Positions 1,910-13,927 of a DNA stretch of 36,041 nucleotides are shown piece after piece. The stretch spans positions 72,047 through 108,087 of the forward strand of contig JAQUKX010000002.1 in the NCBI GenBank assembly GCA_028718865.1, given 5' to 3'. Numbering within the stretch: position 1 is the first letter of the stretch; the number at the start of each line of letters is the position of its first letter. The translations under genes were made by a program, and so were the position numbers. This stretch comes from Patescibacteria group bacterium. Its GTDB lineage: Bacteria; Patescibacteriota; Patescibacteriia; UBA1558; GWA2-36-10. A model generated the notes under the pieces. It searched no databases. It saw nothing but the letters and a program-made list of their open reading frames with translations, and had not been told where the DNA came from.

Positions 1910-1940
1910 CCGCCCGCCCTGCAAAAGCAGTGGCGGGCGG
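1910..1940. repeat. GC-rich REP-like palindrome, probably also terminator of the minus-strand gene at 1969-2583
   Basis: CCGCCCGCCCTGCAAAAGCAGTGGCGGGCGG; on the minus strand followed by ACAATTTTTTC. A related copy in opposite orientation lies at 2699-2733. Confidence 0.75.
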
Positions 1941-8145: not shown

Positions 8146-8727
8146 TTAATCTTTTGTTATTTCTATTAACGAATCAAGGGCTATAGGTAATTTTTTAAAA
8201 CCTAAAGATTCGTTAAAATGACCCTGTTTATGCTCTATAATAATTTTTGACCCTAAATTAATAAACTCTTCTTTATTTTCTAAAGGGACAAAATGATCAT
8301 CGTCAGAAAAAATAGCTACACTTCTTTTCAAGCAGTTTTTTACTTTAGAAAAATCCAAAGGAGCTTCAAGCCATTCTTTAGCTACGCTACGCACAATATC
8401 CTCATCTTCTAGATTGCTAAGACTTTTAAAAAAACCGGCTACAAAAACTGCTCCGCCGACTTTTACCCTTTCTGGTAATTTTTCCAAATAACGAGCTATG
8501 GCCTGACAGCCCATGCTATGACCAATAAAATATGTTTGCTCATCTGCTTCGCCTACTACTTCTTTTAATTTTGGCACCCAATTATTTATCCTCGGTTCAG
8601 CAGTGTGGGGAAGCTGAGGAATAAAAACATCAAAACCTATTATTTCTAGCTCTTTTTTCAGCCAAGGAAACCAACCTGTATTTGGATGCCCGTCCCAACC
8701 ATGAACTATAAAAACTCTTTTTTTCAT
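8146..8727 (-). CDS. RBBP9/YdeN-type alpha/beta hydrolase
   Basis: MKKRVFIVHGWDGHPNTGWFPWLKKELE; IGHSMGCQAIARYL; SDDDHFVP. Stop codon abuts the argS stop (convergent). Confidence 0.88.
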   Translation of the reverse strand: MKKRVFIVHGWDGHPNTGWFPWLKKELEIIGFDVFIPQLPHTAEPRINNWVPKLKEVVGEADEQTYFIGHSMGCQAIARYLEKLPERVKVGGAVFVAGFFKSLSNLEDEDIVRSVAKEWLEAPLDFSKVKNCLKRSVAIFSDDDHFVPLENKEEFINLGSKIIIEHKQGHFNESLGFKKLPIALDSLIEITKD

Positions 8728-8744
8728 CTGTAATTAATTTTATC

Positions 8745-8763
8745 TGGTGCGCCCACTAGGATT
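8745..8763. repeat. Direct repeat of the 3'-terminal 19 nt of tRNA-Lys
   Basis: TGGTGCGCCCACTAGGATT, identical to 8902-8920. Confidence 0.95.
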
Positions 8764-8901
8764 TGCCCCGAGATAAACTCGGGATTAAAATATTACTAAT
8801 GGCCTGCCATCCGTAGCTGAATATACAAACTAAAGACCTTTATAATTTACAAATGTCGTCCTACGCTAAAGCTACGAACGACATCCTTCGTAAGCGAAGG
8901 A

Positions 8902-8978
8902 TGGTGCGCCCACTAGGATTCGAACCTAGGACCGTTTGCTTAAAAGGCAACTGCTCTACCGGGCTGAGCTATAGGCGC
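8902..8978 (-). tRNA. tRNA-Lys (TTT), CCA encoded
   Basis: Minus strand GCGCCTATAGCTCAGCCCGGTAGAGCAGTTGCCTTTTAAGCAAACGGTCCTAGGTTCGAATCCTAGTGGGCGCACCA; anticodon loop CTTTTAA. Confidence 0.95.
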
Positions 8979-9091
8979 ATGAAAATAAATTGTGATTGAA
9001 CCGAGAAAATTTGCCTATAGTTTGAAAATGTTGAGGCGAAGCCCGGAGGGCTGCCTGTCCCGCGTATCCGCCGGCTGGCGAAGAAGCGGGA

Positions 9092-9114
9092 AGCTATAGG
9101 CGTATGAAAATAAA
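9092..9114. repeat. Partial repeat of the 5' end and upstream flank of tRNA-Lys
   Basis: AGCTATAGGCGTATGAAAATAAA versus 8967-8989 AGCTATAGGCGCATGAAAATAAA (22/23). Confidence 0.93.
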
Positions 9115-9262
9115 AAAAGCTTATATATAAAATAAAATACGGAGCTTATTATATGCCGTATTGCCAAAAAAGTCAATATTATTGTTGACAAACTGTCCAT
9201 AAATCTAGCTTGAAAAATAAAGAAAAATAAGCTAAGCTGATTCTACGACTAAAAACTGGCCC

Positions 9263-10708
9263 ATGTCAAAAATACCCCCACAAAATTTGGAAGCAGAAAG
9301 TTCGCTCTTGGGCGCTTTACTTTTGGATAAAGAAGGTATTATCAAAGTAAGTGACTTTCTCAAAGCTGATGATTTTTATAAAAGCGCCAATAGCCTGATT
9401 TATCAGGCTATTTTGGATCTTTTTACCAAACATGAACCAGCGGATATTTTATCAGTCGGCAACCGCCTCAATGAAAAAAAACAGCTAGAGGCAATTGGGG
9501 GCAAGACTTATCTGGCGCAACTCACTGCCATGGTGCCCAATTCTTCCCATGTAGAAAACTATGCCAAGATAATACGCAAAAAATCTACTCTAAGAAAACT
9601 AGAGAAAGCTTCAGCAGAAATATCTGAATTCACTTATTCTGAAGCTGAGGATGTGGAAAAAATTCTAGACAGAGCCGAACAAAAGCTCTTTGCAATTTCC
9701 CAGGAATCAGTCAAAAAAAACTTTATTCCCATAAAAAATGTCCTCAACGAAGCTTTTCACCGTATTGATGAGCTGCATCGCTCCGGCGGTCAAGGCACCC
9801 GAGGCATACCGACCGGCTACAATGACTTGGACAAATTGCTGTCGGGCTTTCAGGATTCTGATCTGATTATTTTGGCTGCTCGGCCCTCTTTGGGTAAAAC
9901 GACCCTGGCTCTGGATCTTATCAGAAATATTGCCGTAAAATCCAAAGTACCAGTGGGAATTTTTTCTCTGGAGATGTCCAAAGAGCAATTGGTCGATAGA
10001 CTACTGTCGGCCGAAGCTGGTGTAGATCTATGGCGCATGCGTACTGGCCGCTTGTCCGATAAAGAAGAAGACGACGACTTCCCTCGCATCGGCCGAGCCA
10101 TGGGCGTCCTATCTGAAGCAGCTATTTTCATAGACGATTCACCCAATGCCAATGTCATGGAAATCCGCACCAAAGCCCGCCGCCTAAAAATGGAACACAA
10201 TCTCGGTTTTTTGGTCATTGACTATTTGCAACTGATGGAAGGCGACAGCCGCTCAGAAAACCGAGTTCAGGAAATATCAGCTATTTCCCGCGCTCTCAAG
10301 CAAATCGCCCGCGAACTGGATATCCCAGTCTTGGCTTTGTCTCAGCTCTCCCGTGCTGTAGAAAGCCGCTCTCCAGCCATACCCAAGTTGGCTGACCTGC
10401 GAGAGTCTGGCTCCATAGAACAAGACGCTGATATTGTCATGTTTATCTACCGCAAAGCCAAGGACAAAAGCCGTGAGTGTCCAGAAGAAGAAAAAGCCAT
10501 TGCTGAAATCCATATTGATAAACACCGCAATGGCCCGACCGGAGTCTGTCGCCTATTTTTCGACGAAAACAAAGTATCTTTCAAAAATCTAGATGAAAGC
10601 TTCAAAGAAAGCCTGCCGCCGATAAGCACTGAAGAAGAAGTAAAAGCTAGCGGCAATAATGACGCTGCTAAATCGCAATCAAAAATAGGCTGGCAAAATA
10701 TCCCTTAA
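9263..10708 (+). CDS. dnaB: Replicative DNA helicase DnaB
   Basis: PPQNLEAESSLLGALLLD; Walker A AARPSLGKTT; FSLEMSKEQLVDR; VIDYLQLM; LADLRESGSIEQDADIVMF. Confidence 0.97.
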   Translation: MSKIPPQNLEAESSLLGALLLDKEGIIKVSDFLKADDFYKSANSLIYQAILDLFTKHEPADILSVGNRLNEKKQLEAIGGKTYLAQLTAMVPNSSHVENYAKIIRKKSTLRKLEKASAEISEFTYSEAEDVEKILDRAEQKLFAISQESVKKNFIPIKNVLNEAFHRIDELHRSGGQGTRGIPTGYNDLDKLLSGFQDSDLIILAARPSLGKTTLALDLIRNIAVKSKVPVGIFSLEMSKEQLVDRLLSAEAGVDLWRMRTGRLSDKEEDDDFPRIGRAMGVLSEAAIFIDDSPNANVMEIRTKARRLKMEHNLGFLVIDYLQLMEGDSRSENRVQEISAISRALKQIARELDIPVLALSQLSRAVESRSPAIPKLADLRESGSIEQDADIVMFIYRKAKDKSRECPEEEKAIAEIHIDKHRNGPTGVCRLFFDENKVSFKNLDESFKESLPPISTEEEVKASGNNDAAKSQSKIGWQNIP

Positions 10709-10759
10709 ATTATCTAGCTATAATAAATTAATCTCTTTAAAATAATTAACTAAAACAAA

Positions 10760-11053
10760 ATGTTCAATAAATTAAAACAGTTCAACGATTTACGCAAACA
10801 GGCCAATACTCTCAAGAGCGCTTTGGCTGAAGAAAAAGTAGAAGCTGAAAACAAAGCTGTCAAAATAGTCATGGACGGCAATCAAGAAATAAAATCTCTG
10901 GAAATAAACGAGGAATTTTTATCCAAAGAAAAAAAGAAAGATTTGGAAAAATATATCCAAGAATGCATTGCCGACGCCATCAAAAAAGTCCAGAGAAAAA
11001 TGGCCATGAAAATGCAACAAATGGGCGGACTGGATTTGCCTGGTATGAAATAA
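10760..11053 (+). CDS. YbaB/EbfC family nucleoid-associated protein
   Basis: About 97 aa between dnaB and recR; C-terminal AIKKVQRKMAMKMQQMGGLDLPGM typical of YbaB/EbfC. Confidence 0.9.
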   Translation: MFNKLKQFNDLRKQANTLKSALAEEKVEAENKAVKIVMDGNQEIKSLEINEEFLSKEKKKDLEKYIQECIADAIKKVQRKMAMKMQQMGGLDLPGMK

Positions 11054-11062
11054 TAAGCCGCC

Positions 11063-11659
11063 ATGCAATATTTGCCTGATTTTATCCGCAAGCTTATCGA
11101 TGAATTTGACAAGCTACCCGGTATTGGCCCCAAGACTTCGGCCAAGCTGGTTTTTGATCTGCTGCACCGCAAAGAAGATATCAGGGAATTAAGCCAAGCT
11201 TTGGACAAGGCTTATAAAAACATACATTTTTGTCCTCAGTGTTTTGACTTAAGCAATGACGGACTGTGCAACATTTGCAAAAATCCGCAGAGAGACCAAA
11301 CTGTCATCTGTGTAGTAGCTGGCAATCAGGATGTAGATGCCATAGAAAAGACCAATGAGTTCAATGGAATCTATCATCTGCTCAATGGCCTTATCAGTCC
11401 TCTAGAAGGCCTGACTCCCGACAAACTAAAAATAAAAGAGCTAGCTGACCGGCTAGCCAAAAACAATATCCGAGAAGTTATCATTGCTCTAGACCAAAGC
11501 CTAGAAGGAGAAGCCACTACTCTTTATTTATCCAAACTGCTAAAAAACCACTCCGTCAAAGTGAGCCAACTAGCCCGAGGCATACCCATGGGCGCCAATA
11601 TAGAATACACTGACCAAGCAACTTTGAGCTCGGCGCTTCAAAACCGCAAAGAATTATAA
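11063..11659 (+). CDS. recR: Recombination protein RecR
   Basis: LPGIGPKTSAKLVFDLL HhH; C-x2-C...C-x2-C zinc finger; Toprim; ARGIPMGANIEYTDQATLSSAL. Confidence 0.97.
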   Translation: MQYLPDFIRKLIDEFDKLPGIGPKTSAKLVFDLLHRKEDIRELSQALDKAYKNIHFCPQCFDLSNDGLCNICKNPQRDQTVICVVAGNQDVDAIEKTNEFNGIYHLLNGLISPLEGLTPDKLKIKELADRLAKNNIREVIIALDQSLEGEATTLYLSKLLKNHSVKVSQLARGIPMGANIEYTDQATLSSALQNRKEL

Positions 11660-11710
11660 ATCGTCTACTAAATGAGTATGTTTTAGAGATTAACTAGAGC
11701 ATATATTTAT

Positions 11711-11750
11711 AAAAAACCCAGCCGCTCGAGAGCGGCTGGGTTTTATTTTA
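11711..11750. terminator. Bidirectional intrinsic terminator between recR and rplU
   Basis: AAAACCCAGCCGCTCGAGAGCGGCTGGGTTTTATTTTA. Confidence 0.93.
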
Positions 11751-13712: not shown

Positions 13713-13852
13713 TTAAAATATAAATAATATATCAAACTAAATATAACACCTACATTTCTACAAAATAACCAACTACCTATCTACCTCTGAAGCTAGTATT
13801 CTTAAATTGGCTACGCCATCCGAAGCTCCGATTATCAACGAGGAGCGAAGGA

Positions 13853-13927
13853 TGGTAGTCCCTAGGGGAATCGAACCCCTGTTCCATGGCTGAGAACCAT
13901 GTGTCCTAACCACTAGACGAAGGGACC
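13853..13927 (-). tRNA. tRNA-Glu (CTC), CCA encoded
   Basis: Minus strand GGTCCCTTCGTCTAGTGGTTAGGACACATGGTTCTCAGCCATGGAACAGGGGTTCGATTCCCCTAGGGACTACCA; anticodon loop TTCTCAG. Confidence 0.94.

Follow-up and report, generated by a model that had tools for sequence, protein, structure and literature searches.

Introduction

Transfer RNA genes are landing sites for large genomic islands, and islands at tRNA 3' ends come with a direct repeat of that end. Tiny palindromes that insert into genes, RNA genes included, are represented by the palindromic GC clusters of yeast mitochondria and by the Rickettsia palindromic elements, and the attC site of integrons is a folded single strand with paired outer boxes, an unpaired spacer and a variable inner stem-loop. 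REP elements and REPINs are short, dispersed and imperfect palindromes, non-autonomous and mobilised by RAYT (IS200/IS605-like) transposases (PMC3733652). SegB, a T4-type free-standing GIY-YIG homing endonuclease of phages, is widely found alongside tRNA genes, whose segmental amplification it drives (PMC13096335), and in CPR bacteria the insertions in rRNA genes with LAGLIDADG homing endonucleases are introns in 16S and 23S rRNA (PMC11270868).

Here we analyze a stretch of 36,041 nucleotides (the window) on contig 2 of a Patescibacteria genome of 877 kb in 24 contigs. Short hairpins beside its tRNA genes, and beside those of relatives, have the appearance of a family of very small mobile elements not described before. 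No description of the CCA-hairpin family was found in Rfam or in the open-access papers searched.

The elements share traits with each of these systems and differ from each. Like REP elements, they are short, dispersed, non-autonomous palindromes, and the window's genome has one Y1-transposase ORF with AACCCGTCGGGTT palindromes; yet the GTAG or CGTC tag is absent from 24 aligned cores (which start with CCATCC and end with GGATGGC-NN-GCCA), the targets are tRNA CCA ends, and the palindrome of the Y1/RAYT gene itself is another sequence. Like the yeast GC clusters and the Rickettsia elements they are tiny palindromes, but those are not known to be anchored on the CCA of many tRNAs or to take half of their stem from the 3' end of the host gene. 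The likeness to SegB is co-location alone, a GIY-YIG gene adjoining tRNAs; SegB occurs in phages and yields long tandem repeats, whereas here truncated copies carry hairpins. As with the CPR rRNA insertions, stable RNA genes are hit in the same bacterial radiation, but the present elements are tens of bases in length, sit next to tRNAs and require no splicing. A direct repeat of the tRNA 3' end (19/19 bp) recalls tRNA-targeted islands, although integrase and cargo are missing and 5'-end copies occur too. Finally, the folding layout of outer boxes, spacer and variable inner stem-loop is that of attC, but there is no cassette, and the target is the tRNA CCA.

Results

Anatomy of the tRNA-Lys locus

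The following features, all on the minus strand, make up the locus and a second copy of its element; statements about the whole genome rest on pattern and family searches.

8745-8763, minus strand: 3' relic, a copy of tRNA-Lys nt 59-77 that ends exactly at CCA
8767-8783, minus strand: hairpin CCCGAG-TTTAT-CTCGGG (plus strand CCCGAG-ATAAA-CTCGGG), directly before the truncated tRNA 3' end, at the expected place of the T-arm; read from the sequence
8800-8901, minus strand: CCA-anchored element, long form, 102 bp, starting right after the tRNA CCA and ending GGATGG-CAGG-CCA; defined by homologous copies abutting other CCA ends
8855-8882, minus strand: hairpin B, GTCGTTCG..GGACGAC (GTCGTCC..GACGAC, internal mismatches); read from the sequence and formed in the RNA fold
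8882-8903, minus strand: hairpin A, CATCCTTCG-CTTA-CGAAGGATG (plus strand CATCCTTCG-TAAG-CGAAGGATG); read from the sequence
8902-8978, minus strand: intact tRNA-Lys(TTT), encoded CCA at 8902-8904; ARAGORN and Rfam RF00005, 68.5 bits
9013-9101, minus strand: whole 5' relic, a predicted closed three-way junction with two hairpins in which GCCTATAG pairs with CTATAGGC; RNA fold of 9138-8740
9058-9091, minus strand: hairpin TCCCGC..GCGGGA, inserted after nt 12 of the 5' relic; read from the sequence
9092-9103, minus strand: 5' relic, a copy of tRNA-Lys nt 1-12 (11/12), the similarity running on 11 nt upstream to 9114
9148-9176, minus strand: probable promoter TTGACT-17-TATAAT upstream of the 5' relic, likewise in relatives
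13808-13852, minus strand: second copy of the element in the window, short form, after tRNA-Glu(CTC) with its CCA at 13853-13855

Read along the minus strand, the order is promoter (9176-9148), 5' relic, about 35 nt, intact tRNA-Lys, CCA-anchored element (8901-8800), about 16 nt, hairpin 8783-8767 and 3' relic. The sequence-only reading had described perfect 19-bp direct repeats bounding a 157-bp unit, three hairpins and an absence of coding content, and each of these observations holds: TGGTGCGCCCACTAGGATT, the last 19 nt of tRNA-Lys, stands at 8745-8763 and 8902-8920 in identical form (19/19), 157 bp apart; all three hairpins are present (8767-8783, 8855-8882, 8882-8903); and no ORF of at least 80 aa lies in the insert. 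Beyond that reading, the CA of the tRNA CCA lies inside hairpin A, and a mirror-image copy of the 5' end occupies 9092-9114. The 138 bp of hairpins between the repeats resolve into the 102-bp CCA-anchored element, whose far box is TGGCCTGCCATCC (8800-8812 on the plus strand), and the hairpin before the truncated tRNA 3' end, which recurs, inverted, in the 5' relic of tRNA-Thr(TGT) on contig C4. Rfam returned tRNA matches only for the window at the gathering score, and no relevant match for 8600-9260 at a relaxed E-value. An intrinsic terminator was considered as the identity of the hairpins at the tRNA-Lys locus and rejected, as none was found there.

The tRNA-Lys gene is divergent from dnaB (window 9263-10708) here and in G015 and G025. 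In most of the relatives examined the two genes point the same way, so an inversion or a move of the tRNA segment has taken place. Upstream of tRNA-Asn (window 1910-1940), CCGCCCGCCCTGCAAAAGCAGTGGCGGGCGG is a member of another palindrome family, which has copies on several contigs.

An element that abuts the tRNA CCA

The 5' arm of hairpin A begins with the CA of the tRNA-Lys gene's own CCA (8902-8903). Copies of the element share one plan, CCATCC-TTCG-(variable stem-loop)-CWWC-GGATGG-C-NN-GCCA, which pairs with the tRNA CCA, and 24 aligned copies have the same core anatomy of CCATCC, TTCG, an inner stem of changing sequence, CWWC, GGATGGC, 2-3 nt and GCCA. The structure is conserved beyond its sequence: the inner arms of the 24 copies differ yet are complementary (mean 3.3 bp versus 0.36 when shuffled), stem variants of hairpin A remain paired in other copies, and hairpin B has covarying versions. 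Several unrelated stem sequences follow a common plan, CCA-stem-loop-stem'-TGGC-NN-GCCA, and so does CCATGAACCG-TCA-TGGTTCATGGCGAGCCA behind Gln and Asn tRNAs, the end of which repeats the last 6-7 nt of the tRNA. Within one genome, the hairpin TGAACCGTCATGGTTCATGGC comes after the CCA of Asn, Gln(TTG) and Gln(CTG), two of which have it in tandem; in G000 (L090, L094: tRNA-Gln TTG, tRNA-Asn) the tandems that follow the CCA of these unrelated tRNAs run to two and three units.

A BLAST search with the insert, proposed in the sequence-only reading as a way to find other tRNAs that carry it, returned copies abutting the CCA of tRNA-Leu, Ser, Thr, Arg, Tyr, Val, Ala, Lys and others; over all searches, homologous copies also adjoin the CCA of tRNA-Ile and of tmRNA. 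The suggestion of a micro-element or MITE-like insertion in that reading is supported, most of the 138 bp being a dispersed hairpin element that abuts many tRNA CCA ends in the order. When 36 genomes of the order were scanned with the pattern, independently of tRNA positions, there were 29 matches as against none for the reversed-pattern control. The matches begin precisely at a tRNA CCA in 20 cases (11 amino acids), at a tmRNA CCA in one and at a tRNA-Val relic in one; one lies within a 23S rRNA gene and six are elsewhere. The tmRNA that bears the element at its CCA (L299) scores 124.6 bits in Rfam. The type-1 core CCATCCTTCGCTGAAGCTTCGGATGGCAAGCCA inside the 23S rRNA gene (L306, G000:C21:708-740) is on the antisense strand and may be an inserted rRNA helix. 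The wider plan CCA-stem-loop-stem'-TGGC-NN-GCCA occurs at 53 places in all DNA examined, of which 31 adjoin the CCA of a tRNA and the others are tmRNA, relics or chance occurrences in ORFs. The elements are short (about 30-140 bp), non-coding and dispersed over many tRNAs and genomes, with CCATCC..GGATGG ends. When hairpins of any kind were counted by their offset from CCA, a test that ignores sequence and counts terminators too, there was no sharp peak, and so our claim of anchoring is limited to sequence-defined families.

The same element occurs in an order relative (G030:C16), and an exact scan of the whole collection found eight records, Peribacteria and Peregrinibacteria included, with one tmRNA (L282) and one unrelated match in Nocardioides. 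Of 380 genomes sampled from the whole phylum, only four had the strict short pattern; the family is therefore concentrated in this order.

Occupancy varies between congeners. In genus g7, the tRNA-Lys of G020 reads CCA-TCCTTCGCTAAAGCTTCGGATGGCACG-CCA and then a terminator; in G016 the CCA leads straight into the same terminator, in G007 a decayed version follows, and in G019 another sequence. The sequences of G020 and G016 fit a filled and an empty site, with an apparent insertion of about 30 bp bounded by CCA, in a comparison between species rather than strains. The search for empty sites suggested earlier yielded this one pair of species.

Truncated tRNA copies on both sides of intact genes

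At the other end of tRNA-Lys, 23 nt around the 5' end (8967-8989) are repeated at 9092-9114 with 96% identity. The hairpin that interrupts this relic is followed by the D-arm-like CAGGCAGCCC and then by CTATAGGC, the complement of the relic's GCCTATAG, and an inverted piece of the tRNA 5' end is present within the relic. The predicted RNA fold of 9138-8740, the tRNA-Lys transcript, has z = -4.9. In the orthologous relics of G013, G015, G016 and G025 the hairpin differs in sequence and is kept as a palindrome. A conserved GGACAGGCAGTRRTAG box after the hairpin was considered as an element end and rejected, since it resembles the tRNA D-arm sequence of the relic. The relic has the same orientation in G016 and the divergent one in G000, G015 and G025; tRNA-Lys adjoins dnaB with no relic in G005, G018, G004 and G019.

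Such relics recur throughout the lineage. Among 241 tRNAs of six genomes there are 23 upstream copies of the 5' end and 11 downstream copies of the 3' end, a few relics being counted for two related tRNAs, with about 0.4 and 0.2 expected by chance; five partner-swapped controls together gave two upstream and one downstream. Upstream relics are anchored at nt 1-2, and downstream relics stop at the tRNA 3' end or no more than 1 nt from it. Mostly they start at nt 1 or end at CCA, and a palindrome commonly replaces the missing part, at the position of the D-arm, anticodon loop or T-arm. At the tRNA-Ile of G013 and G012, as at the window tRNA-Lys, relic pieces flank the intact gene on both sides. 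The G+C-rich CCCGC..GCGGG palindromes are themselves dispersed (57 versus 12 in the control) and also occur away from tRNAs.

Conceivably, the repeats could be what remains of a decayed second tRNA-Lys, the alternative named in the sequence-only reading. Part of it stands: in G003 (L012) the intact tRNA-Lys is preceded by a decayed second copy, and truncated tRNA copies are therefore real. The palindrome TCCGCCAGCTGGCGGA is inserted in that copy, however, and copies generally occur together with inserted hairpins, not instead of them. Target duplication by a single staggered cut of fixed length was also rejected, the 5'-end copies often being 12-13 nt long and others reaching nt 20, 34, 38 or 50.

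Genes that might act on tRNA loci

At 18 of 32 loci with small GIY-YIG genes, a tRNA lies no farther than about 1.5 kb away. Several of these genes end no more than 10 nt from the start of a tRNA or relic, whose U8-A9-G10 serves as their stop codon. There is none at the window tRNA-Lys locus; the same genome has them at other tRNAs, for example Lys(CTT), Ser(TGA) and Asn. These nuclease genes are suspects by association only, and in the DNA examined no enzyme is tied to the elements by sequence or shares their ends. In L084 (G000:C5; 1589-2287 and 1083-1415), a reverse transcriptase-like ORF (motif YVRYTDDF) adjoins tRNA-Ser(TGA), and beside it is a GIY-YIG ORF that extends 37 nt into this tRNA. 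The genome's sole Y1-type transposase ORF (Y1_Tnp, C17:9880; L256, G000:C17 ~8380-11729) has AACCCGTCGGGTT palindromes on both flanks and interrupting its coding frame; tRNA hairpins do not flank it.

Discussion

These sequences are, in our view, probably mobile elements of Patescibacteria, palindromic and non-autonomous, with tRNA genes as their target and an intact tRNA left behind. What the sequences show directly is the anatomy, its recurrence, the exact anchoring at CCA, the variable occupancy and the conserved structure; transposition, a protein that would move the elements in trans, and the processing of the RNA we infer. We envision that two or more kinds of small mobile elements, palindromic and non-coding, struck the tRNA-Lys locus. 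Element 1 (8800-8901) would enter directly behind the tRNA CCA, which would become part of its terminal stem CCATCC/GGATGG, followed inward by the conserved TTCG/CWWC internal loop and a variable inner stem-loop or long insert, and then by C-NN-GCCA; as it takes the CCA as part of its stem, CCA would stand on both sides and the tRNA would stay intact. Element 2 would be the G+C-rich palindrome lodged in the truncated copies, after nt 12 in the 5' relic and before nt 59 in the 3' relic; since such palindromes also occur away from tRNAs, it would not be tRNA-specific. With an essential tRNA gene, insertions would be recoverable only when the end that was hit had been duplicated, so that the broken end comes to lie outside and the intact tRNA inside. 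Transcription would still start at the old promoter upstream of the 5' relic, leaving RNase P and 3' processing to remove the leader and trailer with their hairpins. Either a GIY-YIG nuclease acting by breakage of tRNA genes or the single Y1-type transposase of the genome might be the mover.

A bolder and rather doubtful extension is that Patescibacteria possess a dedicated, structure-guided insertion system for which the tRNA or tmRNA CCA is half of the recognition hairpin, possibly together with GIY-YIG nucleases that break tRNA genes, such that these would be repeatedly destroyed and replaced beside their relics.

How else might the hairpins be explained? Because the structures are conserved through compensatory change, the main rival is that CCA hairpin and leader relic are functional RNA parts controlling the maturation of tRNA and tmRNA, a trailer pairing with CCA or switching to the TGGC-NN-GCCA hairpin and a structured leader. 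The compensatory stems and fixed internal loop, the position of the hairpin next to CCA on the transcript and the two mutually exclusive pairings of TGG would suit such a role. So would the similar leader layout at the tRNA-Lys of several relatives, where the relic fold is kept despite changed stems, which could mean function rather than decay. We nevertheless regard it as unlikely, given that most tRNAs have no hairpin, that occupancy varies among congeners, that identical hairpins stand at unrelated tRNAs of one genome, and that a trailer paired with CCA would hide the very end that needs processing.

Local replication errors, slippage or template switching at tRNA stem-loops, might also produce partial copies and hairpins with no mobile element. 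Consistent with this are the inverted piece of the tRNA 5' end and some relics that are plain tandem copies sharing upstream sequence (L032, L223, tRNA-Thr(TGT) of G013). In 28 of 31 cases, though, the sequences upstream of relic and intact copy resemble each other no more than random pairs do, so plain tandem duplication fails as a general cause and is kept for those three; and the boxes of the type-1 element are constant at unrelated tRNAs and in distant Patescibacteria. Errors of this sort are, we believe, quite improbable as the origin. At the tRNA-Lys(CTT) of G033 (L032, 1503-1690 region), two near-identical 66-nt units, each a D-arm-like box, promoter and tRNA nt 1-12, lie in tandem with a hairpin between them, a ladder of repeated events.

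Very improbable is an origin from a tyrosine-recombinase island that once sat at the 3' end of tRNA-Lys and left 8745-8763 as attR and 8902-8920 as attL: the 19/19-bp repeat from T-loop to CCA suits a classical att core, but the 138 bp between the repeats hold no integrase, cargo or ORF, mirror-image copies lie at tRNA 5' ends and hairpins at truncation points, and the deletion scar once suggested is unsupported because the unit recurs in the same small form and size at many unrelated tRNAs and in other genomes.

A practical corollary is that truncated tRNA copies can mislead tRNA annotation. In these bacteria, elements of about 30-140 bp appear to target tRNA genes and to make the universal CCA a part of their own structure. 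Should they be mobile, few known site-specific elements would be smaller, and this in a radiation of minimal genomes; they would also open a route to learning how an essential RNA gene present in a single copy withstands insertion.
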